From positions 1 to 64,000 of the forward strand of contig NZ_LMHZ01000011.1 of assembly GCF_001428545.1 (NCBI RefSeq): 64,000 nt of DNA, given 5' to 3'. Made by a program: the position numbers and the translations under genes. The DNA is from Noviherbaspirillum sp. Root189. Its GTDB lineage: Bacteria; Pseudomonadota; Gammaproteobacteria; Burkholderiales; Burkholderiaceae_D. Positions 33,769-45,302 of this stretch are shown piece by piece. Positions within the stretch are counted from its first letter, which is position 1. Each line of letters starts with the position of its first letter. The notes beneath the pieces are model-generated. The model searched no databases and had not been told where the DNA came from. It saw only the letters and a list, made by a program, of their open reading frames with translations.

Positions 33769-34506
33769 ATGGAACAGTCACGCAGGACATTCCTGCAGTA
33801 TTCAGCAGCCGCGGTAGCGTCGACCGGAACTGCCGCCTCCAGAAACATGCATCTCGTCCTTCTAGGCGATTCGATTTTTGATAACGGCGCCTATACCGGC
33901 GGCAAGCCGGACGTTATTACGCAATTGCGCAATGTTATTCCACGGGGCTGGAAGGCGGACTTGCTGGCGCGCGATGGCGCGACGACAGAAGGGATCGCGG
34001 CACAGCTTGCACGCGTTCCGCCAGGCGCGACGCATCTCGTGCTGAGCGTCGGCGGCAACGACGCCCTCATGCAACAGCACCTGCTACGATCATCGGCGTC
34101 CTCTACCGCAGAAGCATTGACCGTGCTTGGCCATGCGGTCCGGCACTTCGAGACAGCCTATCGCAAGGTCATTGACGCCTGCGTTGCGCGCGGCCTGCCA
34201 CTGACCATCTGCACCATCTACAACGGCAATTTCGACGACAGGCAATATCAGCGAATAGTGCAGGTTGCGCTAGCACTATTTAACGACGCCATCATCCGTA
34301 CCGCAACGGAACACCACCTCAATGTAATCGAACTAAGGATGGTGTGCTCGCAGCCGGAAGACTATGCAAATGCCATCGAGCCCTCCAGTACCGGCGCCGC
34401 GAAAATCGCACGCGCGATCCTGATAGCCACCAAGAGTACGAGTAGCCAAAACACGAGTGGCATATCGGCGGTACGCGCCGCCCGGCTTTTTAGCGGACGA
34501 GGATAG
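33769..34506 (+). CDS. SGNH-fold (GDSL-like) protein, exported, atypical catalytic residues
   Basis: The 245-residue protein has a Tat-like signal (SRRTFLQYSAAAVAS). SGNH block I is LLGDSIFDN with Ser35 and block III is SVGGND (Gly96, Asn97). Block V, normally DxIHP with the catalytic Asp and His, reads NAIEP (residues 201-205), so both are replaced. Family enzymes are lipases or esterases of the periplasm or envelope. With Ser35 but no His, hydrolysis is doubtful, and a binding or different catalytic role is possible. An alternative His could act if my alignment is off. Confidence 0.75.
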   Translation: MEQSRRTFLQYSAAAVASTGTAASRNMHLVLLGDSIFDNGAYTGGKPDVITQLRNVIPRGWKADLLARDGATTEGIAAQLARVPPGATHLVLSVGGNDALMQQHLLRSSASSTAEALTVLGHAVRHFETAYRKVIDACVARGLPLTICTIYNGNFDDRQYQRIVQVALALFNDAIIRTATEHHLNVIELRMVCSQPEDYANAIEPSSTGAAKIARAILIATKSTSSQNTSGISAVRAARLFSGRG

Positions 34507-34511
34507 GGCTT

Positions 34512-34683
34512 ATACCAATCCCAACCTATATCGCACCATGAGATCGCGTCTTTTTCCGGGGGCGCCGAGCCGCCTGCCTACGTTGCACTCGTCGTCAATA
34601 GCCCGCTATTGACTCCTCCTGCGCCTTGCCAGTCAAAAAAAGCCATCGATCTCATTTGTCACGTTACAGGTTGGCATTGGTAT
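34512..34683 (-). mobile_element. fold-back MITE-like element, copy A (reverse orientation)
   Basis: The ends are TACCAATCCCAA (left) and TTGGCATTGGTA (right), the latter with one base changed. It matches the other three copies in reverse orientation and has about 14 extra bases near 34556-34571. The apex shows GTCAATAGC/GCTATTGAC around a CC dinucleotide. It is flanked by TTA on both sides, a 3-bp target duplication. It lies in the 391-base gap (34507-34897) between the SGNH gene and the aminotransferase; the rest of that gap is plain AT-rich sequence. Confidence 0.85.
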
Positions 34684-34897
34684 TACATCGCCTGCCCAAT
34701 TCATCAATGACGTCGTCCGTTTCCGCGAAACTGTCACGGTAAAATCGCCGTGCCGGCACATTAACTTATTTTGCAACTGTACAGGGACTAGGGCAGAATG
34801 GCCCATATAGGCTCATAGAAACATCGCAGGCAGAAAAACCCGTGCACTGCAGGTGTCTTGTCATGCCTTCCGATCCTTTACCATTGCGAGTCCTTTC

Positions 34898-36118
34898 ATG
34901 GAAATGTTTCAGCCGCCGTCCGTCGTCTCTCTCGACCATATCCTGCCGCAAGAGCCGTTGTTAATGATGGGCGCCGGCCCGGTCCCGATTCCCCACAAAG
35001 TGGCCTATGCCAATTCGATTGTGATCAATCACCTTGGCGAGACCATGAACAAGGTGATCGAGCAGGTCAAGGAAATGGGCGCCTATGTGTTCCAGACTTC
35101 CTCCAAACATGTGCTTGGCGTTGCCGGCCCCGGCTCGGCAGCGATGGAAATGGCGATCTGCAACCTGGTCGCGCCGGACAGTCGGGTACTGTCGATCTGT
35201 AACGGATATTTCAGCCGGCGCATGGCGGAAATGGCCACGCGTGTCGGTGGCAAGGTGACCGTTCTGGATATCGCTGACAATCTCGCGGCTGAGCCTGCGC
35301 AAGTCGAGCAGTTGCTGAAGGAAGGTAATTTCCAGACGCTGACGATCGTTCAGGGTGAGACTTCCAATACGGTTTTCAACCGCCATCTCGAAGCGATTGC
35401 GCGACTTGCACATTCCTATGGCTGCATGGTGATCGTCGACGCGGTGTGCACGCTGAGCACCATGCCACTTGAGATGGACCGCTGGAAAGTTGACGCCGTC
35501 ATCACGGGGGGTCAGAAGGGGCTGGCATCCATTCCGGGCGTGTCGCTACTGGCGTTTTCCGAACAAGCGTGGAAACGCATCGAAGCACGCAGCCACACCA
35601 TCGCACACTGGTGTCTCGATGCGCTGTTGGCCGATAAGTTCTGGAATCAGAAGTCGTATCATTACACTGCACCGGTGTCCGGCATTCTTGCCTTGCATGA
35701 GGCCTTGCGCCTGGTTTGCGAGGAAACATTGCCGCGCCGGTTTGCGCGTCATGCCCTGTGCTCCAAGGCCTTGCAGCGGGGCATAGAAGCAATGGGACTG
35801 CGCCTGCTGGTGTCTGAAGATGTCAGGCTTAACTCCGTGGTCGGCATTACGGTCCCGGAAGGGATTTCCGGCGATGCGGTGCGTACGCATATGTCGCGCG
35901 TGCATCGCGTCGAGATATCAGGATCCTTTGGGCCTAACATTGTTCGCATCGGGCAGATGGGCGAACAGAGCCGCGCGCACAATCTGTTCAGAACCTTGCA
36001 TGCATTCGGATCAAGCCTGCAATTTGCAGGCGCATCGCTTGACCTTCCAGCCGGGATCGCCGAACTGGAAAAAGGCTTGTCGAACCAGAGTGACGCGTCT
36101 GTGGCCGAATCGCGATAA
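34898..36118 (+). CDS. class V aminotransferase, alanine/serine-glyoxylate type
   Basis: This 406-residue PLP enzyme belongs to the fold-type I class V group. GVAGPGSAAMEMAI near residues 74-87 fits the substrate and phosphate loop. VIVDAVCTLSTMP (178-190) carries the Asp that contacts the PLP pyridine N. GGQKGLASIPG carries the Schiff-base Lys207. Members transfer the amino group of Ser, Ala or a related donor to glyoxylate or pyruvate; the exact donor is unknown. The start at 34898 is chosen by comparison with the usual N-terminus, and the frame extends 15 codons upstream. Confidence 0.88.
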   Translation: MEMFQPPSVVSLDHILPQEPLLMMGAGPVPIPHKVAYANSIVINHLGETMNKVIEQVKEMGAYVFQTSSKHVLGVAGPGSAAMEMAICNLVAPDSRVLSICNGYFSRRMAEMATRVGGKVTVLDIADNLAAEPAQVEQLLKEGNFQTLTIVQGETSNTVFNRHLEAIARLAHSYGCMVIVDAVCTLSTMPLEMDRWKVDAVITGGQKGLASIPGVSLLAFSEQAWKRIEARSHTIAHWCLDALLADKFWNQKSYHYTAPVSGILALHEALRLVCEETLPRRFARHALCSKALQRGIEAMGLRLLVSEDVRLNSVVGITVPEGISGDAVRTHMSRVHRVEISGSFGPNIVRIGQMGEQSRAHNLFRTLHAFGSSLQFAGASLDLPAGIAELEKGLSNQSDASVAESR

Positions 36119-36282
36119 AAATCTAGCTCCTGAGAACCGTCACGTTTTGATACAAAATTGACCATGAACTTCCGATAACGGATGCTTCTAACTTCATCCA
36201 GCAAGTGCTCGGTAAGTCATGTGAGTGATCCCTTGATCCTCCATGACCGATTCTCAATTTCTTCCAAGGATGGAGGCAGTGT

Positions 36283-36816
36283 ATGAACAAGCTTTTGATC
36301 GCGATTCTGGTCTCGGCACTCGGTACCGGTGTCGCTGTTGCACAAACTTCTTCGACCGGTGGCAGCTCCGGCTCATCGGGTAGCTCCGGCTCATCCGGGT
36401 CCAGCGCAACAGGCGCATCGGACGCTTCGGGCACATCGGGTTCCAGTTCTTCAGGCAAGAGCTCGACCAAGAAGAAATCGTCGGAGTCGAGTGGCAGCAG
36501 CAGTAGCCCTAGTTCCAGCAGCTCTGGTTCCTCGGGCTCCTCTGATACTTCCGGAACAAGCGGCTCGGGCTCGTCAGGGTCATCCGGTTCGTCCGGCATG
36601 AGCAGCGGCGGATCATCGGGTACATCCGGCTCTTCAGGCAGCTCAGGTTCTTCCGGTTCTTCGGGATCCTCTGGTCTAAGCGGCGGTTCATCCGGCTCCG
36701 CTTCTTCCGGTGGTTCCGGCTCTTCGGGTGGTTCAGGCACTTCTGGCTCTTCCGGTTCCTCCGGCATGAGCGGTGGCTCATCCGGTTCGGGCAGCTCCAG
36801 CGGCTCCAGCAAGTAA
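36283..36816 (+). CDS. Ser/Gly-rich low-complexity exported protein
   Basis: The 177-residue protein has a signal peptide (MNKLLIAILVSALGTGVAVA, cleavage near AVA-QT). Almost nothing but Ser, Gly and Thr follows, in SGSSGSSG-like repeats, with a short basic KSSTKKKSS island near residue 65. GGAGG precedes the ATG. Such proteins are often extracellular linkers or surface material; the function is unknown. The repeated codons open a long reverse-strand frame that is only a shadow. Confidence 0.8.
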   Translation: MNKLLIAILVSALGTGVAVAQTSSTGGSSGSSGSSGSSGSSATGASDASGTSGSSSSGKSSTKKKSSESSGSSSSPSSSSSGSSGSSDTSGTSGSGSSGSSGSSGMSSGGSSGTSGSSGSSGSSGSSGSSGLSGGSSGSASSGGSGSSGGSGTSGSSGSSGMSGGSSGSGSSSGSSK

Positions 36817-36962
36817 GCACCAGGAAATGCCTTCTCTGCCGGACAGTGCCAATACTGGCCGGCAGAGCCCTCGAACGCTATCCCGCTATGGCGGTATTTC
36901 AGGCTAAACAGTGTTCAGGTCTGCCCTGTAACACCAATATGGCTTGGGACCCGTATACGGCC

Positions 36963-37448
36963 TCAACGCATCGGCGAATACGCAGTGGGCGTCAGTATGC
37001 AATTCTCGATACGTTCAACAATGATCCGTTCCGCCTCTGTCTCCGCACGTTTTGCCAACCACTCCGGATCACTTGCAAAGGCGTTCCACTTTGTCTCCCG
37101 CTCCGCCAGACTTTCCCATTCCAGCATGTAAGTCAGCGTCTGGTTACTGGCGCCGATCAATGTTGTCCAAAACCCTAGCGGGCGAATGCCGTATTTCTTC
37201 CAGAAGCCTAATACCAATCCCAAGCTATAACGTGACAAATGAGATCGATGGATTTTTTTGACTGGCAAGGCGCAGGAGGAGTCAATAGCAAGCTATTGAC
37301 GACGAGTGCAACGCAGGCAGGCGAAAAAAGACGCGATCTCATGGTGCGTTATGGGTTGGGATTGGTATAAGGTAATCGTTTCGAAACGATTGTTCAGCGC
37401 GGGCAAACGGCCCGGTGCGCAGTGGTAAATCCTGAGTTCATGAATCAC
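36963..37448 (-). pseudogene. NIPSNAP-family gene interrupted by MITE copy B
   Basis: The gene starts at GTG 37448, with GGAG just before, and reads MIHELRIYHCAPGRLPALNN to FETIT, as in NIPSNAP/DUF1330-like ferredoxin-fold proteins. At 37371 it is broken by the fold-back element at 37211-37368. Beyond the element the frame resumes as LGFWKKYGIRPLGFWTTLIG to the end at 36963. Removing the element plus one copy of its TAA target duplication joins FETIT directly to LGFWKK in frame and restores a 108-residue protein. This strongly implies a recent insertion into a functional gene. Confidence 0.85.
37211..37368 (+). mobile_element. fold-back MITE-like element, copy B (inside NIPSNAP gene)
   Basis: This 158-base copy has TACCAATCCCAA and TTGGGATTGGTA ends. 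It folds on itself over most of its length: ATAACG, ATGAGATCG, a T6/A6 block and GTCAATAGC recur inverted in the two arms, with AA at the apex. It is flanked by TAA on both sides. It has no reading frame of its own, so it must be mobilised in trans. Confidence 0.88.
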
Positions 37449-37531
37449 GGTTTCTCCGAAATGACAAAGTGATTGAGATTAGAAGACATTCAGTACATAT
37501 TCCAAGCGCATCACGCATCGTCAACAGGTCA

Positions 37532-38455
37532 TCAACGCGTCATGCGCGCGGTCGCAACGCGAGCCGCGGCGAGGTCCCAGGCAGCTTGACCGACGGTCTT
37601 GAAGATTGGCAGCGCCGCAGTGCTTACGCTGCCGCCCGGCAGTACATCCGCCAGACTGCGTACACCGCTCCAGTCGACGCCGGCCTGCAGGAGGTCGCCA
37701 GCCTCATGCTTTGCCCCCTCCAGATCATCCACGACAACCGTACGGGCGTGCACCAGCTCCGGAGGAAACTCGGCCATGTTGGGTTTGAAGGCGCCCACGC
37801 CAATGGCGAGGGTATGCGGCGCGATATTGGCGGGAATGACCGGCACCGTCGACGTGGTCAGCGCGATCACCACGTCAAACGTGCCAAGCTGCTCCGGCGT
37901 CAGCTGTTCCAGTGTCACGGCGCGCGCTTCCATGCCGGCGTGGCTCTGATTCAGTCCGGCACAAAATTTTTCTGTGCTCTCGATGGAGCGGGCCGCGACA
38001 TGCAGTGAGGTAAGGCCGAAGTACTGATGCAGGGCTTCGGCATGCGCAGAAGACTGCACACCGGTTCCGATCAGGAGTGCCGACGCCGGTCGCTTTGGGA
38101 GAAGCGTCTGGATGCCAAGCAGCGTGACAGCCGCGGTCCTGCGTGCTGTCACTGTAGGACCGTCGAGCAAAGCGAGCCGACGGCCAGTTGCCGTATCAAA
38201 TACGATCACCTCGCCCTGGATGGCTGGCAAGCCATGCGACGCATTGCCGTTATGCACGGTAATCAGTTTGGTTACGCCGATATCGTCGGCTACAGCGGGC
38301 ATGCAGAGCAATACGCCACCTTCGACGGGGACGACCTGGCGCTCGGGTGCATGCAGGCTTCCCTCAGCGCGTTGCCGGGCCGCCAGAGCAATGGCGGGCA
38401 CCAGTTCTGTGTAAGGCAGGGCGTTGGCGGTGTCGGCGGCGTTAAAAATCTGCAT
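37532..38455 (-). CDS. ornithine cyclodeaminase-family imine reductase (LhpI-like)
   Basis: This 307-residue NAD(P)H-dependent enzyme belongs to the OCD/mu-crystallin family. It has the Rossmann motif ALLIGTGVQSSAHAEAL and the family-typical TVTARRTAAVTLLG and GAFKPNMAEFPPEL. The sequence looks closer to bifunctional pyrroline-2-carboxylate/piperideine-2-carboxylate reductases (LhpI) than to true ornithine cyclodeaminase; this call is by eye. Its divergent neighbour is a DapA-family enzyme, which fits an amino-acid or hydroxyproline-type catabolic locus. The start at 38455 follows AAGGA; the longer frame is not used. Confidence 0.82.
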   Translation of the reverse strand: MQIFNAADTANALPYTELVPAIALAARQRAEGSLHAPERQVVPVEGGVLLCMPAVADDIGVTKLITVHNGNASHGLPAIQGEVIVFDTATGRRLALLDGPTVTARRTAAVTLLGIQTLLPKRPASALLIGTGVQSSAHAEALHQYFGLTSLHVAARSIESTEKFCAGLNQSHAGMEARAVTLEQLTPEQLGTFDVVIALTTSTVPVIPANIAPHTLAIGVGAFKPNMAEFPPELVHARTVVVDDLEGAKHEAGDLLQAGVDWSGVRSLADVLPGGSVSTAALPIFKTVGQAAWDLAAARVATARMTR

Positions 38456-38523
38456 GGAAATCCTTGAATTACTAATGGTTATAAGCGGCGTGGGCAAACG
38501 GTCGATAAGTCACGGTTACGCGG

Positions 38524-38730
38524 TTAAGTGACGGCTGCCGATGCCACGCTCGAATATACCAGCCGACGTGAATTAACGTCGGCCGTTGAGGTTTGCTCCG
38601 CTGCGGCACCAGGCTTTACCTGTCTAAGCCAATTTGCAATCCGGCCTTGACCAGGCCCCAGGGAATTCAGATAATCGAAGCATTCGTATTCCGCATTCTC
38701 AGGCATTAACGTGCTTAATATGGTTGCCAT
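38524..38730 (-). CDS. possible small hypothetical protein
   Basis: This 68-residue frame begins MATILSTLMPENAEYECFDYL, with a plausible helical first half. The only purine-rich stretch (AAAAGGAA) abuts the ATG, which is too close for normal initiation; an internal ATG lacks a site. It is listed because the first half looks protein-like. It may be spurious. Confidence 0.3.
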   Translation of the reverse strand: MATILSTLMPENAEYECFDYLNSLGPGQGRIANWLRQVKPGAAAEQTSTADVNSRRLVYSSVASAAVT

Positions 38731-38834
38731 TTCCTTTTACTACGCAAACGCACAGGGCTTCATGTCCCAGGCCGCTGCATGTGTAACCGGCAATGGCAAA
38801 TCGAAGAAACAGTCGCTCACCTGACCGGGGCGCA

Positions 38835-38933
38835 CTGTCCTGTCAGGTGAGCTGACAGGACAGCACATGCGTTCTTCACCCTCTTTTCCTTGCATATGCC
38901 AGCCAGCAGCTCCTGACAGTGACCGGACGGTCA
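38835..38933. promoter_or_regulatory. inverted repeats before the DapA-family gene
   Basis: A perfect 12-bp inverted repeat (CTGTCCTGTCAG, 38835-38846; CTGACAGGACAG, 38852-38863) with a five-base spacer lies 89 bases before the DapA-like start. A second, 14-bp dyad TGACCGGACGGTCA spans 38920-38933. Both could be operators for a GntR- or LysR-type regulator in the divergent promoter region. The first could also fold in RNA. The rest of 38731-38951 shows nothing. Confidence 0.5.
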
Positions 38934-38951
38934 TTGCTTACAGGAGTCATC

Positions 38952-39842
38952 ATGAATGGATTTACAGGTATCTGGGTTGCGCTAGCGACGCCTTTCCAGG
39001 ATGGAGAAATCGACTTTGCTGCGCTTGCGCTGCTGGCGCGCAAGCTGTACGGCGAAGGAGCAACAGGGCTCGTCGTCTGCGGCTCCACGGGCGAAGCTTC
39101 CGCACTAAGTGACCACGAACAGCTCGCCGTGCTGGACAAGGTAATCGATGCCGTACCCGGGTGTCCGGTGATCATGGGGCTCGGCGGCAGTAGCCAGCGC
39201 GCTGTCATCGACCGACTGCGCGAGATACAGCAACGTCCGCTTGCCGGCGTGCTGATCCCGGCGCCATATTACGTCCGGCCTTCCCAGCACGGCATTGTTG
39301 CCTATTTCAACGCGATTGCCGATGCGTCGACAGTCCCTGTCATCCTCTACAACATCCCCTATCGTACCGGCGTCGCCATGGAGCTCGCCACCATACGCAG
39401 CATCGCCGAACACCCACATGTCGCCGCCATCAAGGATTGCGGCGGCGACTCCGCGCTGACCATGCAGTTGATCGCCGATCGGCGCCTTGCGGTATTGGCA
39501 GGAGAAGACAGCCAGATTTTCAGTACGCTATGCCTGGGAGGCGCCGGCGCCATCACCGCCGCCGCGCATATCCGCACCGACTTGTTCGTGAGGATGGCAA
39601 ATGCAGTTGCCGCATCCAGACTGGATGAAGCACGCCGCCTGCATTTTGCACTGCTGCCCTTGATCGATACCTTGTTTGCGGAGCCCAATCCGGGACCGCT
39701 GAAAGCCGCGCTTGCGCTGCTCGGACTGTCCAGCGACGAAGTGCGTGCACCCATATTGCAGGCCTCGGCGACATGCAGGAAGGAGATCGCCGGCCTACTC
39801 GCTCGGTTGCCTGCCTTTGATCATGAAGTATATAAATTGTGA
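38952..39842 (+). CDS. DapA/NAL-family lyase or synthase
   Basis: This 296-residue TIM-barrel aldolase belongs to the dihydrodipicolinate synthase family. The Schiff-base Lys161 (AAIKDCGGD), the catalytic Tyr133 (LYNIPYRTG) and the GSTGEAS loop sit at the same numbers as in E. coli DapA. It could be true DapA or a catabolic relative, such as a hydroxyproline-pathway or sugar-acid lyase. Its position beside an LhpI-like gene favours catabolism. The start at 38952 follows AGGAG. Confidence 0.85.
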   Translation: MNGFTGIWVALATPFQDGEIDFAALALLARKLYGEGATGLVVCGSTGEASALSDHEQLAVLDKVIDAVPGCPVIMGLGGSSQRAVIDRLREIQQRPLAGVLIPAPYYVRPSQHGIVAYFNAIADASTVPVILYNIPYRTGVAMELATIRSIAEHPHVAAIKDCGGDSALTMQLIADRRLAVLAGEDSQIFSTLCLGGAGAITAAAHIRTDLFVRMANAVAASRLDEARRLHFALLPLIDTLFAEPNPGPLKAALALLGLSSDEVRAPILQASATCRKEIAGLLARLPAFDHEVYKL

Positions 39843-39863
39843 CTTGATCCGACAGGATGTGTC

Positions 39864-40000
39864 ATACCAATCCCAAGCTATAAGGTGACAAATGAGATCG
39901 ATGGATTTTTTTGACTGGCAAGGCGCAGGAGGAGTCAATAGCGGGCTATTGACGACGAGTGCAACGCAGGCAGACGGAAAAAGACGCGATCTCATGGTGC
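39864..40000 (+). mobile_element. fold-back MITE-like element, copy C (right end missing)
   Basis: It begins ATACCAATCCCAAGC and follows the other copies closely up to CTCATGGTGC. It then changes abruptly into unrelated sequence, so the last ~20 bases including the right inverted end are lost. The left flank is TCA. The apex dinucleotide is GG. It lies between the convergent ends of the DapA-like and KtrA-like genes. Confidence 0.8.
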
Positions 40001-40091
40001 AACTTCCAAGTTCGACCCAAAGGCGTCTTTCATCCACTTTTTAGGCGCTGAAACGAGCCGGCATACCAGTAAATTTGCTGCAAAACCGGAC

Positions 40092-40790
40092 TTACTTTTT
40101 ATGCGTACCGGCTGCAAACGATTCAATTTTACGAGTCGAACCGGACACGATGAGTAAATCGGCCGGGAGAATACGCGTGTCTGGTGTCGCGTGTTGAAAA
40201 TCTTCATTCGCACGCTTTACACCGACCACCGTCACTCCGAATTTCTCTCTTACATGAGATTCTGACAACCTCAAATTGTGCGTGAGTGGCGGTGCATGAA
40301 TTTTTGCAATGGCAAAGCCGTCTTCAAACTCGATGAAATCCATTAGCCGGCCCGTGATGAGGTGTGCGACTCTGGCGCCCATGTCGGCCTCGGGATATAC
40401 GACATGATGGGCGCCGATGCGCTGGGCGATCTGGCCGTGTTCCGGGGTCATGGCCTTGACCCAGATGTCTTTGATCCCCAATTCAGTGAGCACCATGAGT
40501 GTCATGAGGCTTGACGCAAGGTCCGATCCTATTCCGACAATCGCATGCGCAAAGTCAGCAACGCCAAGTTGCAGCATGACGGCCTCGTTGGTCGAATCCG
40601 CCTGAACCGCGTGCGTCAACCTGTCCGCCCATACTTGTACGAGGTCCGGGTTTCTGTCGATTCCCATCACGTCATGACCCAGCCGCATGAGCGACTGTGA
40701 AACAGACCCGCCGAAGCGGCCCAACCCGATGACTACGACACTGTCACCTTTAGAAAAAGCGAACTGCTCCGTAAAAATTCTACCCAACAA
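40092..40790 (-). CDS. KtrA/TrkA-type potassium channel regulatory subunit
   Basis: The 232-residue cytosolic protein has an N-terminal RCK/Rossmann domain (VVVIGLGRFGGSVSQSL, residues 18-34) that binds nucleotides and a C-terminal TrkA_C-like domain. It gates the adjacent KtrB channel. The start is placed at TTG 40790: GAGGAG lies seven bases upstream, and this gives a four-base-class overlap with the end of ktrB; longer frames lack support. Single-RCK length (not the double TrkA) supports the Ktr type. Confidence 0.88.
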   Translation of the reverse strand: MLGRIFTEQFAFSKGDSVVVIGLGRFGGSVSQSLMRLGHDVMGIDRNPDLVQVWADRLTHAVQADSTNEAVMLQLGVADFAHAIVGIGSDLASSLMTLMVLTELGIKDIWVKAMTPEHGQIAQRIGAHHVVYPEADMGARVAHLITGRLMDFIEFEDGFAIAKIHAPPLTHNLRLSESHVREKFGVTVVGVKRANEDFQHATPDTRILPADLLIVSGSTRKIESFAAGTHKK

Positions 40791-42108
40791 TTGGATGCTC
40801 CTCAGGATAGCGATAGGGCATGCGCCGCTCGGCCAGGACCAGCGACGTTGCAAGTGTGATTGTTCCTACTCTGCCCAGATACATGAGTAGGGTCAGCATA
40901 AGCTGGCCGAGCGGCGGCAAGTCAGCAGTGATGCCGGTTGACAATCCAACTGTGCCGAATGCAGAGATGACCTCGAAGATGATTCGGTCTGTAGTGAAAT
41001 CGGAAATGCGCAACAGGACCATCGTGCCAAGTACAACCATCGCGCTGCCAAGCACAAGGACGGTGATGGCTTGCCGATGAGCCGAGGCGCCGACGCGACG
41101 GCCAAACGCTTCGCTGTCCGGGCGCCCCCGGATCTCCGCGACGACCAGCAATACAAGGATGACGGCTGTTCCAACCTTGACTCCTCCGGCCGTTCCGGCG
41201 CTTCCGCCGCCAATGAACATGAGAAGGTAATGCGCGGCCCAGGATTCTCGCGTCAGTGCTCCTATATCCAGGGCGTTGAAACCTGCCGTTCTTGCCGACA
41301 CCGACGCGAATGCCGCGTTGAGCAATTTTCCGGGCAAAGCCATAGCACCCAAGGTCTTTGGATTGTCCCATTCGAATGCCAGTACCGCAATGAAACCCAC
41401 CAGCAACAATACCCCCGTTCCGACAAGGGTAAGTTTGGTGTGCAGCGACCAATGGCGTGGGTCCCGGAATCGTACTCGCAGATCTTGCAAGACGGGGAAG
41501 CCGATTCCGCCGATGAAAATCGCCAGCATCACAGGCGTCAGGATCAGTGCATCGGCTGCATACCGGACCAAACCGTCCGGGTGGATAGAGAAACCAGCGT
41601 TATTGAACGCGGAAACGGCATGGAAAAGTCCGCTCCACGCCGACTCTCCCCACGTAAGACCGTACCCCATGCGAAACCTAAGCATCAGCAGGGCTGCGAT
41701 AATGAATTCGCAGGCGAACGTTACAACAAGCACTAGCCTGGTAATACTCGCAATGTCGCCCAAGGCCAATGAATGGGTCTCGGCCTGCGCAACCAGCTTG
41801 GTTCGAAGCCTCGGCGAGCGGTTTACCATCAACCCGAGCAACGTCGCGGCCGTCATCATGCCAAACCCGCCAACCTGAAACAGGGCCAGGATGACAATCT
41901 GCCCAAACGTCGACCAATACGTGCCGGTGTCCACCACGGACAAGCCGGTGACGCACACGGCCGAGACGGAGGTGAAGAATGCGGTCAGCCACGGCACCGC
42001 TGTTCCTTCTGCCCGAGATACTGGAAGCATTAGAAGCAGGGTTCCGAGCGCAATTGCCACTAGAAAGCTCAGTGCCACTGCGCGGGCCGGATGAACTACC
42101 GGTCTCAT
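40780..42108 (-). CDS. KtrB/TrkH-type potassium uptake channel
   Basis: This 442-residue membrane protein has about ten helices and four pore repeats. Selectivity-filter-like segments include SVSAVCVTGLSVVDTG, VSAFNNAGFS and ASVSARTAGFN, followed by SAFGTVGLSTGIT near the end, the four P-loops of the Trk/Ktr/HKT superfamily. It imports potassium together with KtrA, encoded directly downstream in overlap. The promoter is probably in 42109-42172, next to a fold-back element. Confidence 0.92.
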   Translation of the reverse strand: MRPVVHPARAVALSFLVAIALGTLLLMLPVSRAEGTAVPWLTAFFTSVSAVCVTGLSVVDTGTYWSTFGQIVILALFQVGGFGMMTAATLLGLMVNRSPRLRTKLVAQAETHSLALGDIASITRLVLVVTFACEFIIAALLMLRFRMGYGLTWGESAWSGLFHAVSAFNNAGFSIHPDGLVRYAADALILTPVMLAIFIGGIGFPVLQDLRVRFRDPRHWSLHTKLTLVGTGVLLLVGFIAVLAFEWDNPKTLGAMALPGKLLNAAFASVSARTAGFNALDIGALTRESWAAHYLLMFIGGGSAGTAGGVKVGTAVILVLLVVAEIRGRPDSEAFGRRVGASAHRQAITVLVLGSAMVVLGTMVLLRISDFTTDRIIFEVISAFGTVGLSTGITADLPPLGQLMLTLLMYLGRVGTITLATSLVLAERRMPYRYPEEHPIVG

Positions 42109-42172
42109 CTGGAGGAAATCTCTTTCACTTGGAAAAATAAGTGTTCGGAAGGAATCAAACGCGCATCGGGTT

Positions 42173-42330
42173 ATACCAATCCCAAGCTGTAACGTGACAA
42201 ATGAGATCGATGGATTTTTTTGACTGGCAAGACGCAGGAGGAGTCAATAGCGAGCTATTGACGACGAGTGCAACGCAGGCAGACGGAAAAAGACGCGATC
42301 TCATGGTGCGTTATAGGGTGGGATTGGTAT
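42173..42330 (+). mobile_element. fold-back MITE-like element, copy D
   Basis: This full-length 158-base copy has TACCAATCCCAA and GTGGGATTGGTA ends (one base changed on the right). TTA flanks both sides as a 3-bp target duplication. The apex is GTCAATAGC-GA-GCTATTGAC. It lies in the 389-base gap between ktrB and treY; the remaining sequence of that gap (42331-42497) shows no gene or recognised motif. Confidence 0.87.
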
Positions 42331-42497
42331 TATTGACGCGACAAAGTGAAAGCGGTTTATGGAATGGAATTGTAACCGGCAACAAGGGAGATTGCTTACG
42401 TAACAACTGCTGTAGCCTCAGGACGCGATGAAATTGGACAAAGGTTAGCAGATCGGGTCTGATTTACTACGCATTAAGACAACTACGCTAACGCATA

Positions 42498-45302
42498 CTA
42501 CGCCGGGACGAGCATCGCAACAGGCAAGTTTGCAAGTACTTCACTGAGCGTCAATTTTCCCGACTCGATTCTGATTGTGCGTCCGGTATAGATGTCCATC
42601 CACATCGAACTGGCGGCGGCAGGAAACAGAAGCACCGTATCCTGCCACGCGTCCACCGGGATAACCGGGCCGGCGCTGTCACCCATCAGCGTCGTCGGCA
42701 GGTGTGCAGCGATAACGATCGCTGTGCGCTCCTGCATCTGCCGCGCGAATCCGATGACATGTCGCGCAGCCGCGCCTTCTATCCGCAACGCCAGATACGT
42801 GCCGCGCGCAAAGAGATCCTGTTCTCGTGCACGCAATTGCAGAGTGTGCCGGATGACCGCTTGCTTGATCGCGCCGGACTGCCATCCCGCGGTATCGGTG
42901 ATGTTTTTTTCCGCACCGGACAAGGTCTGTGTGCGTGCGGCGTAATCCACCGGGCGCCGGTTATCCGGATCGACAAGACTAAAATCCCAGAAATCAGTTC
43001 CCTGGTACAAGTCCGGCATACCCGGCGAGGTCATTCGCAACACACTCTGCGCCAGACTCTTCGCAACGCCCGCCGGCGTAATGCGATTCACCCATGCCAC
43101 CAGTTGCGGAAGGAAGCTATTGCCCGGTCCGGCCTGGAGTACCGCATACAGAAAGCGCTTGCATGCCGCCTCATATTCTTCATTCGGCAGCACCCAGTCA
43201 CTGACCTGCTTCGCTTCGCGCAGTGCCTTGGTCTGCCAGCGTTCAATGCGTTCAGCGAATTGTGTGACACCGTCACTATCATTCGGATCAAGGCCGATGG
43301 GCCAGGCGCCGGCCAGCATCTGATACAGCATTAGTTCATCGGCGGGGTGCGGCGCAGTCGATGGATCGGCCCCGCTGTCAGACGTGACGCTGCTGCGCAG
43401 TGGGGCATTCATGTGCATCCATTCACGCACCCTCTTTGTCCACTCATCCGGCAGCTCGCTCAGCACCGAGAGCCGGGCACGTACATCCTCGCCTCGCTTG
43501 TGGTCGTGCGTCGCGGTCGCCAGCATGGAGGATGGAAACCGTGTTGCGCGAATTTTATTCCCTTCGTGGAATTCATTCAGATCGACGGAAAACTGCTCGG
43601 GGTCGGAGCCCACTTCATTACGTGACAACAGTCGTCCGTAGCGATAAAACGCCGTATCTTCCACCGACTTGGCGGCCAGCGGCGGCGTCAGTTGCTGGAA
43701 GCGGGTGATGGCGCGCTGGTGCAGGCTGCGCACACGCGGATTGGCCGAATCGCGCGGTGCATCGCCGCCAAGCCAGCGTGCAATCACATCGAGGAGCGGC
43801 CCTTCGGTGCGGTCGACACTGTGGCGTGCCTGCTCCAGCGCGCGGTCGATGACTTCCTGGTCGAGGTCGTCGCGGCCGTTACTGTCCGCATAGGTCCGAT
43901 AGACTGGAAAATGCACCAGCAATTCGTGAAACACGCGGCGGATCGCGCCAAGCGAAAAGTCACGCGTGCGCAGGTCGGTGCGGGCCACGGCATGCAAGGC
44001 GCGCGACGCGGCTTCAAATTCCCCTGCCAGATTATTAGCCAGCAATTGCCGCCGTGCTTCCCTTACTTCCGCATGAAAATCCTTGTCCTGCCCGGTAAGC
44101 TCCGTCCATAGTGCGGACAGTGGCGCCGCGCCCGTAGGGTCGTGCAGCAAGGCGCCAACGCGGTCCATGAAGTCGTAGCCGCTGGTGCCGTCGATCTCCC
44201 AGTTTTCCCTGAGGTGTTCGTTATTGGCGAGAATTTTCTCGACGATGATATAGGCAGGTGCCGGCGGCAGTTCGGGCGGACGCTGCGACGTCAGCGCCTG
44301 CAACCGCCGGCGCAGCTTGCGGCAATAGGCGCCGGGGTCGGCCAGGCCATCGACGTGGTCGATGCGCACGCCGTCGATCAGGCCTTCAGTGTAAAGACGG
44401 AAAATCAGGGCATGCGTCGCCTCGAACACGTCGTCCTGCTCGACCCTGACACCGGCAAGGTCGGTCACTTCAAAGAAGCGCCGCCAGTTAATGCCATCGG
44501 CAGCGCAACGCCACCACGCAAGCCGATAGTGCTGTTGTTCCAGCAAAGCGTGCAGCGCATTCAAGCCTTGCGGCGTGGTCGCATCGTGCGCGGCGATCGC
44601 AGCCTCAATCGCCGCAGCGCCTTCGGGCGTGCGTCCGGCCTCGCGCAGCTGGCCGAAGCCCATGTCGGCATTCTGCTGGCTGATGCCACCGTTTTCGTCC
44701 CTTCCTTCTTCAAATGCCGCAATCGCAGACACCAGGCTGTCCGATCCGGCCGAGCGCAGGACGCCGGCATAGCCGGCTGGTCCAATCGGAAAGCGGTGCG
44801 AATAATAAGCGGCGAAAAACTTGCCGCGCGTGGCATCGAATTGCAGCTTGATGTCGCCGGCGGCGAGTACATCGCCATAGGGTTGCCCCAGGAAGGGTGC
44901 CATCACCTTGCCTTGCAGCGTCTCATCGGCCGGGTGCCAGTCGATATCGAACCAGCGCGCATAGGGGCTGCCCTGCCCCCATTCGAGCACATGCTGCCAC
45001 CACGGATTTTCCGGACCGACCCCCATATGGTTGGGCACGATGTCAAGAATCAGCCCCATGCCGGCTGCACGGATGCGGGCGACAAAGCGACGAAAGCCTT
45101 CTTCGCCGCCGAGTTCGGGATTGATGCGCGTCGGATCGACGATATCGTAGCCGTGCGTCGAGCCGCTGCGCGCGGTAAGGATGGGCGATGCATAGATATG
45201 ACTGATGCCGAGCGATGCGTAGTACGGCAACACTTCGGCCGCCTGGTCGAATGTAAAGTCTTTATGCAACTGCAATCGGGCCGTGGCGCGCGGAATGGAC
45301 AT
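42498..45302 (-). CDS. treY: malto-oligosyltrehalose synthase
   Basis: This 934-residue GH13 enzyme converts the reducing end of maltodextrin to a terminal alpha,alpha-1,1 (trehalose) unit. The nucleophile Asp is in DGVRIDHVDGLADP (about residue 315), the acid/base Glu in IIVEKILANNEHL (about 352) and the third carboxylate in ATHDHKRGEDVRAR (about 599). The last motif, with its ARL/RSEDVR type ending, is specific to TreY. The length is typical. Its start overlaps the malQ stop by one base (TGATG). It is the last gene of the seven-gene unit. Confidence 0.95.
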   Translation of the reverse strand: MSIPRATARLQLHKDFTFDQAAEVLPYYASLGISHIYASPILTARSGSTHGYDIVDPTRINPELGGEEGFRRFVARIRAAGMGLILDIVPNHMGVGPENPWWQHVLEWGQGSPYARWFDIDWHPADETLQGKVMAPFLGQPYGDVLAAGDIKLQFDATRGKFFAAYYSHRFPIGPAGYAGVLRSAGSDSLVSAIAAFEEGRDENGGISQQNADMGFGQLREAGRTPEGAAAIEAAIAAHDATTPQGLNALHALLEQQHYRLAWWRCAADGINWRRFFEVTDLAGVRVEQDDVFEATHALIFRLYTEGLIDGVRIDHVDGLADPGAYCRKLRRRLQALTSQRPPELPPAPAYIIVEKILANNEHLRENWEIDGTSGYDFMDRVGALLHDPTGAAPLSALWTELTGQDKDFHAEVREARRQLLANNLAGEFEAASRALHAVARTDLRTRDFSLGAIRRVFHELLVHFPVYRTYADSNGRDDLDQEVIDRALEQARHSVDRTEGPLLDVIARWLGGDAPRDSANPRVRSLHQRAITRFQQLTPPLAAKSVEDTAFYRYGRLLSRNEVGSDPEQFSVDLNEFHEGNKIRATRFPSSMLATATHDHKRGEDVRARLSVLSELPDEWTKRVREWMHMNAPLRSSVTSDSGADPSTAPHPADELMLYQMLAGAWPIGLDPNDSDGVTQFAERIERWQTKALREAKQVSDWVLPNEEYEAACKRFLYAVLQAGPGNSFLPQLVAWVNRITPAGVAKSLAQSVLRMTSPGMPDLYQGTDFWDFSLVDPDNRRPVDYAARTQTLSGAEKNITDTAGWQSGAIKQAVIRHTLQLRAREQDLFARGTYLALRIEGAAARHVIGFARQMQERTAIVIAAHLPTTLMGDSAGPVIPVDAWQDTVLLFPAAASSMWMDIYTGRTIRIESGKLTLSEVLANLPVAMLVPA

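Follow-up and report, generated by a model that had tools for sequence, protein, structure and literature searches.

A fold-back element separates two pieces of a NIPSNAP gene

The 64,000-nucleotide stretch of Noviherbaspirillum sp. Root189 DNA analysed here (hereafter the window) holds a NIPSNAP gene in two pieces, which raises the question of what lies between them, how it came to be there and which transposase could have moved it. Both pieces lie on the minus strand, an N-terminal one of 26 codons with a GTG start (37371–37448) and a C-terminal one of 82 codons plus the stop (36963–37211), a partition proposed in the initial annotation and borne out by both direct reading and the profile register. 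In the Pfam NIPSNAP profile (PF07978), the C-terminal piece covers positions 28–102 (E = 4.4e-19) and the N-terminal piece positions 2–22 with an E value of 0.14, weak by itself; the pieces are in register, with five residues available for the five missing profile positions.

Between them sits a fold-back MITE at 37212–37367 on the plus strand (ends TACCAATCCCAA / TTGGGATTGGTA), for which direct reading gives 156 bp where 158 had been annotated. The element begins with TACCAATCCC and ends with GGGATTGGTA, and the flanking TAA that had been reported on both sides is indeed present as a 3-bp target duplication, one copy at 37209–37211 (TAA on the plus strand, and on the gene strand the TTA that forms the first codon of the C-terminal piece) and the other at 37368–37370 (TAA on the plus strand). 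On the minus strand the sequence across the insertion reads GAAACGATTACC, TTA and TACCAATCCCAA at one border, and TTGGGATTGGTA, TTA and GGCTTCTGG at the other. The element plus one copy of the duplication amounts to 159 bp, a multiple of three, and once these are removed in silico FETIT joins LGFWKK in frame. Compared with intact orthologues the split locus has exactly 159 bp extra, so the terminal TA is part of the element and not of the target; an insertion within a gene thus gives exact element borders, which alignments of copies alone cannot set because the element ends themselves begin or end with TA.

Intact orthologues carry no element

A protein search of 40 genomes, including that of Root189 itself (G000), gave NIPSNAP matches in 12. 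Good homologues outside the Root189 genome occur in two genomes of the same genus (G011 at 79% and G003 at 78%) and in two more distant ones (G038 at 65%, G025 at 62%), whereas weak matches of 32–43% in four other same-genus genomes were excluded as orthologues. All four good homologues run ungapped across the position of the junction (FETITLGFWEK, FESITLKFWEK, FADHTLGFWQR and FANVTLKMWKK, respectively), and the G011 and G003 orthologues are intact genes of 108 codons that align without gaps to the joined pieces and lack the element. The in-frame junction predicted upon element removal is therefore matched by real genes, FETIT-LGFW in G011 and FESIT-LKFW in G003. As DNA, the C-terminal piece finds the gene in Root189, G011 and G003 only among 15 genomes of the genus, so that two of the 14 other same-genus genomes provide the comparison with relatives that had been called for, both with an intact and element-free gene.

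Within the Root189 genome we found no second match to the C-terminal piece at E values up to 0.001. The joined pieces differ from the G011 protein at 22 of 108 residues, with a dN of 0.15 and a dS of about 2.8, which is saturated; the window carries 12 unique residue changes, G011 6 and G003 7. Although the window branch is thus the longest, the comparison points to no strong decay of the split pieces, and the insertion most likely postdates the divergence from these two intact relatives. The annotated view that the element had moved recently stands to that extent, namely that the insertion would be later than the split from intact relatives and that the pieces are not visibly decayed.

The element belongs to a multicopy family with TNA target duplications

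Three further copies lie in the window, all on the plus strand: one of the 170-bp form flanked by TAA/TAA (34513–34682), one aligned over 136 bp with one end not found (39865–40000) and one of 156 bp flanked by TTA/TTA (42174–42329). The four copies thus fall within 8 kb (34513–42329), and the three besides the NIPSNAP copy sit between longer ORFs. In the same region, positions 36283–36816 encode a 177-residue ORF that consists almost wholly of Ser/Gly repeats after a start resembling, by eye, a signal peptide and has no match in a Pfam scan.

Across the Root189 genome, the element occupies at least 40 places (40 of 120 candidates scored; most of the remaining matches listed repeat these places on the other strand), and the 13-base end with at most one mismatch has 133 matches compared with 3 for a reversed control. 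Among the genome stretches examined, a loose definition of two-ended copies gave at least 44 distinct ones in Root189, of which 39 have matching 3-mer flanks (18 TAA, 15 TTA, 3 TGA and 3 TCA) and five do not. TNA stands on both sides of 41 copies and its middle base agrees in 39 of them, where 5000 shuffles gave a mean of 14.8 and a maximum of 26. Copies from other genomes have matching duplications in 23 of 34 cases and unmatched flanks in the other 11. Ahead of the TNA, C or G predominates and A is almost absent, and after it G/C is preferred (47 copies, both strands). Lengths in Root189 range from 81 to 171 bp, clustering at 156–157 and 170–171 with shorter forms besides. The family is therefore short, multicopy and without a transposase gene, and has the terminal inverted repeats and target duplication of a MITE. 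A search for other split genes took the three longest spanning frames among 62 copies with matched duplications and scanned their flanks separately in Pfam; five of the six flanks had no match and the remaining one, a flank of L184, corresponds to leucine-rich repeats.

Element matches were found in eight of 40 genomes, Root189 included. They are strong in G000, G008, G009 and G010, and in G001, G005, G007 and G016 they extend over 35–40 bases only (E = 1.6e-4 to 7.7e-4). A scan of named genomes for the end pattern, from which records of the Root189 genome were possibly left out, returned 36 stretches; Noviherbaspirillum malthae, soli, suwonense and aerium account for 31, and MAGs of other groups for the remaining five. 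Identical ends, flanks and lengths equate G008 with N. malthae (L118/L178, L123/L192), G106 with N. soli (L266/L174) and G084 with N. suwonense (L252/L184). Among the MAGs, one from Desulfobacteraceae holds a 92-bp element (L175:187–278), counted with the 34 copies from other genomes, that is flanked by TAA/TAA and shares its ten terminal bases with the MITE, which suggests that the family may be wider. Two pattern matches, one from a Legionella MAG and one from a KSB1 MAG, fall within coding ORFs and appear fortuitous, while those in Granulosicoccaceae and Methylococcaceae MAGs were inspected for nearby ORFs only. Collections of plasmids and phages gave no match to the element.

Pairing of the arms and a possible role as an RNA hairpin

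As single-stranded DNA, the 156-bp element folds on itself over its full length (−40.5 kcal/mol, z = −8.9, equalled by none of 200 shuffles), and the RNA of its other strand folds with a z score of −7.0. Standard pairs, G-T included, occupy 97% of pair cells in 62 aligned copies (3270 of 3375), and cell counts over 68 paired positions give 284 G-T against 41 A-C, with 606 other mismatches. Such maintenance could mean that the element is now a domesticated RNA or DNA hairpin, acting as a regulator or mRNA stabiliser, with selection preserving the copies and transposition having been only the origin. In its favour, 15 of 56 stem pairs have changed on both sides in the 62 aligned copies, and of the changes inferred on the tree away from Watson-Crick pairs, 61 lead to G-T and 30 to A-C (P = 0.0015); with a strand-neutral pairing, blind to wobble, the counts are 56 and 33 (P = 0.019), and 28 returns to Watson-Crick start from G-T against 4 from A-C. 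The excess of G-T over A-C hints at selection on an RNA hairpin made from one strand, or else at mutation with a strand bias, a signal weakened by the possible recombination among copies and by the reliance on a single tree. Indeed, all these counts come from one alignment and one tree of possibly recombining repeats, and the NIPSNAP copy destroys the gene it entered. The element furthermore lacks an Rfam match (none at E values up to 1 in positions 34000–43000), and its orientation relative to neighbouring ORFs shows no clear preference: with crude ORF calling, 40 copies divide into 16 convergent, 18 tandem and 6 divergent contexts, the tandem cases splitting 11 to 7. We regard such domestication as unlikely, though it retains some weight.

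An IS630-family insertion sequence shares the element ends

A mobile MITE calls for a transposase, and an insertion sequence (IS) of about 1160 bp with an IS630-type DDE transposase shares up to 25 terminal bases with it. In the Root189 genome (L073, contig 31), a two-frame transposase with DDE_3 and winged-helix matches lies between TACCAATCCC and GGGATTGGTA, 1163 bp apart. In N. malthae (L118), the C-terminal ORF scores 147.1 bits against NF033545 (transpos_IS630), above the cut-off of 100, whereas the N-terminal ORF stays below it at 81 bits. In the same species an IS end TACCAATCCCAAGTCATAACATGCCG agrees with a MITE end TACCAATCCCAAGTCATAACATGCCA at 25 of 26 bases; the two MITE copies whose end is nearest to the IS (L168:1239 and L193, N. 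malthae) are among the 11 with unmatched flanks. In both L118:885–1968 and L073:416–1500 the transposase is encoded in two overlapping frames, with no internal stop seen in L118 and a run of A near the frame change in L073, and the arrangement possibly reflects programmed frameshifting.

In place of the 2-bp TA duplication of IS630, six of eight two-ended IS copies carry a matching TNA, namely TAA in L118, L233 and L234, TTA in L123 and L236 (whose ends were accepted with up to two mismatches) and TGA in L235; the flanks of the other two are unmatched (L117, CTA/TTA; L237, CAA/TTA). A query with the N-terminal part of the IS protein matched three of 30 genomes (G000, G008 and G009), all of which carry the MITE, and a search of 392 genomes in the family with the C-terminal half (E values up to 1e-30) matched eight, of which four belong to a second GTDB genus. 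Counting against the pairing, G010 is rich in MITE copies yet has only a partial close relative of this IS: the N-terminal query finds no match there and the C-terminal query aligns over 80 residues at 69%.

On these shared ends and duplications, the IS would be the likely mobiliser of the MITE, acting in trans. Beyond about 12 bp the MITE arms resemble one IS end only, and since both arms resemble that same end, the MITE seems to consist of one IS end present twice in inverted orientation and not to be a simple internal deletion. In the Root189 genome, the IS copy on contig 31 is interrupted by a TGA and that on contig 30 by a TAG, the other copies found being partial. Current mobility of the MITE in this strain is accordingly doubtful, barring an intact IS copy missing from the assembly, and the earlier suggestion of recent movement does not extend to present activity, since every partner IS copy found in the genome is interrupted or partial.

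IS5/IS1031-like elements target TNA, as do eukaryotic PIF/Harbinger elements. The mobiliser could accordingly be an IS5/IS1031-like or other DDE_Tnp_1 element, with the ends shared with IS630 being secondary: the 3-bp TNA resembles the target of that class and differs from the TA that characterised IS630 elements duplicate, and the Root189 genome has 19 DDE_Tnp_1 places. We examined all 19 as partners, about 1.5 kb to each side or less at contig ends, and none is bracketed by TACCAATCCC and GGGATTGGTA at up to one mismatch; the IS630 copies, in contrast, are bracketed by those ends and have a matching TNA in the proportion given above, which makes a DDE_Tnp_1 mobiliser decidedly improbable.

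Another IS, with ends that adjoin MITE ends at the edges of contigs (L077, L060 and L070), was considered as a parent and rejected, as it sits inside MITEs instead. We take the transposase of its relatives (G004, G005) to be of IS110/IS1111 type. The left end of this IS lies within a MITE in three of seven Root189 places by BLAST (L105, L109 and L113), inspection by eye adds a fourth (L116), and two of its right ends, in L060 and L070, directly adjoin MITE ends; this IS seems to insert preferentially into the MITE.

Consequences of the insertion for the NIPSNAP gene

We consider it highly probable that an IS630-linked MITE inserted with a 3-nt stagger, splitting the NIPSNAP gene and abolishing the intact protein. 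The IS630 transposase of the partner IS would move the MITE by cut-and-paste transposition, the staggered insertion would duplicate TTA/TAA and split the gene, and NIPSNAP function would presumably be lost. Directly supported parts of this reading are the element and its borders, the TNA duplications, the empty orthologous sites, the ends common to MITE and IS, and the matching IS duplications.

The insert might instead be translated in frame and tolerated, in the manner of Rickettsia palindromic elements, given that insert and duplication together span 159 nt and keep the frame. Read in the N-terminal frame, the insert does preserve the register but contains one TAG stop, by which the intact protein would be lost and a continuous product would need read-through, so that tolerance by translation has very little to recommend it. 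Least credible is a repeat misplaced by the assembly between two gene pieces, for although the assembly has 90 contigs, several of which end at or near element copies or the IS beside the element, the two flanks are parts of a single gene that lacks precisely the expected codons, and the TNA duplication is of the kind found throughout the two-ended Root189 copies (39 of 44). The locus is an ordinary gene disruption by a MITE, which the initial annotation read correctly except for the element length and for speaking of "excision": the exact restoration of the frame is that of a removal in silico.

Relation to known elements and implications

The most unusual point is the 3-bp TNA target of what appears to be a common IS630/MITE lineage, because characterised IS630 elements duplicate a 2-bp TA. 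Published texts listed for the element end sequences look unrelated by title, as does the literature listed for IS630 together with TNA, and in other literature searches the family is absent from the listed titles. Nor is it named in the available portions of a Thiomargarita genome paper (PMC4853749) or of a review of prokaryotic MITEs (PMC10969869).

In the accessible sections of two reports, RUP of Streptococcus pneumoniae is a non-coding repeat of ~107 bp with about 110 copies and ends similar to those of IS630-Spn1, for which mobilisation in trans was proposed and occasional gene knock-outs were noted (PMC2229807, PMC3049150). As described there, RUP and IS630-Spn1 form the nearest known pair of a small repeat and an IS630-family IS with similar ends. 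The likeness is one of description only, and RUP differs in its host and in targets that contain a TA dinucleotide, where the Noviherbaspirillum MITE duplicates a 3-bp TNA and has arms that pair over their full length. The ends of the Correia/NEMIS elements of Neisseria are presumably unrelated to those of our MITE. The available text on Correia/NEMIS describes MITE-like elements with inverted repeats, TA at the termini and target duplications (PMC2229807), features shared with our MITE, again by description only.

Of the same transposase family as the partner IS are ISY100, for which the excerpted source gives TA duplications in 34 of 39 products and AA/TT in two more (PMC2170065), and IS630, which prefers TA in CTAG according to a title in the reference list of the same paper. 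Going by these excerpts, the CTAG preference is echoed by C-TNA-G, whereas ISY100 and IS630 duplicate TA and the partner IS duplicates TNA. A 3-bp duplication, the sole such case in the Tc1/mariner group among the texts consulted, is described in the accessible part of a report on the TBE transposons of Oxytricha, relatives of Tc1/mariner (PMC12242761); the resemblance to the partner IS is by description only, and there the host is a ciliate and the duplicated motif is ANT, not TNA.

With moderate confidence, we propose that a 3-bp target is new for IS630. We lean towards a scenario, somewhat better than evenly balanced, in which the stagger of an IS630 lineage in the Noviherbaspirillum group changed from 2 bp (TA) to 3 bp (TNA, within C-TNA-G), leaving this signature in both the IS and its MITEs, and in which the hairpin may also be kept as one-strand RNA. 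For the organism, insertion of the MITE explains one broken NIPSNAP gene, the sole match to the C-terminal piece in the genome at the E-value limit applied. For the family, the results suggest that a bacterial lineage of IS630/Tc1-mariner type is able to duplicate 3 bp, and the determinants of the stagger could be tested by comparing related transposases.
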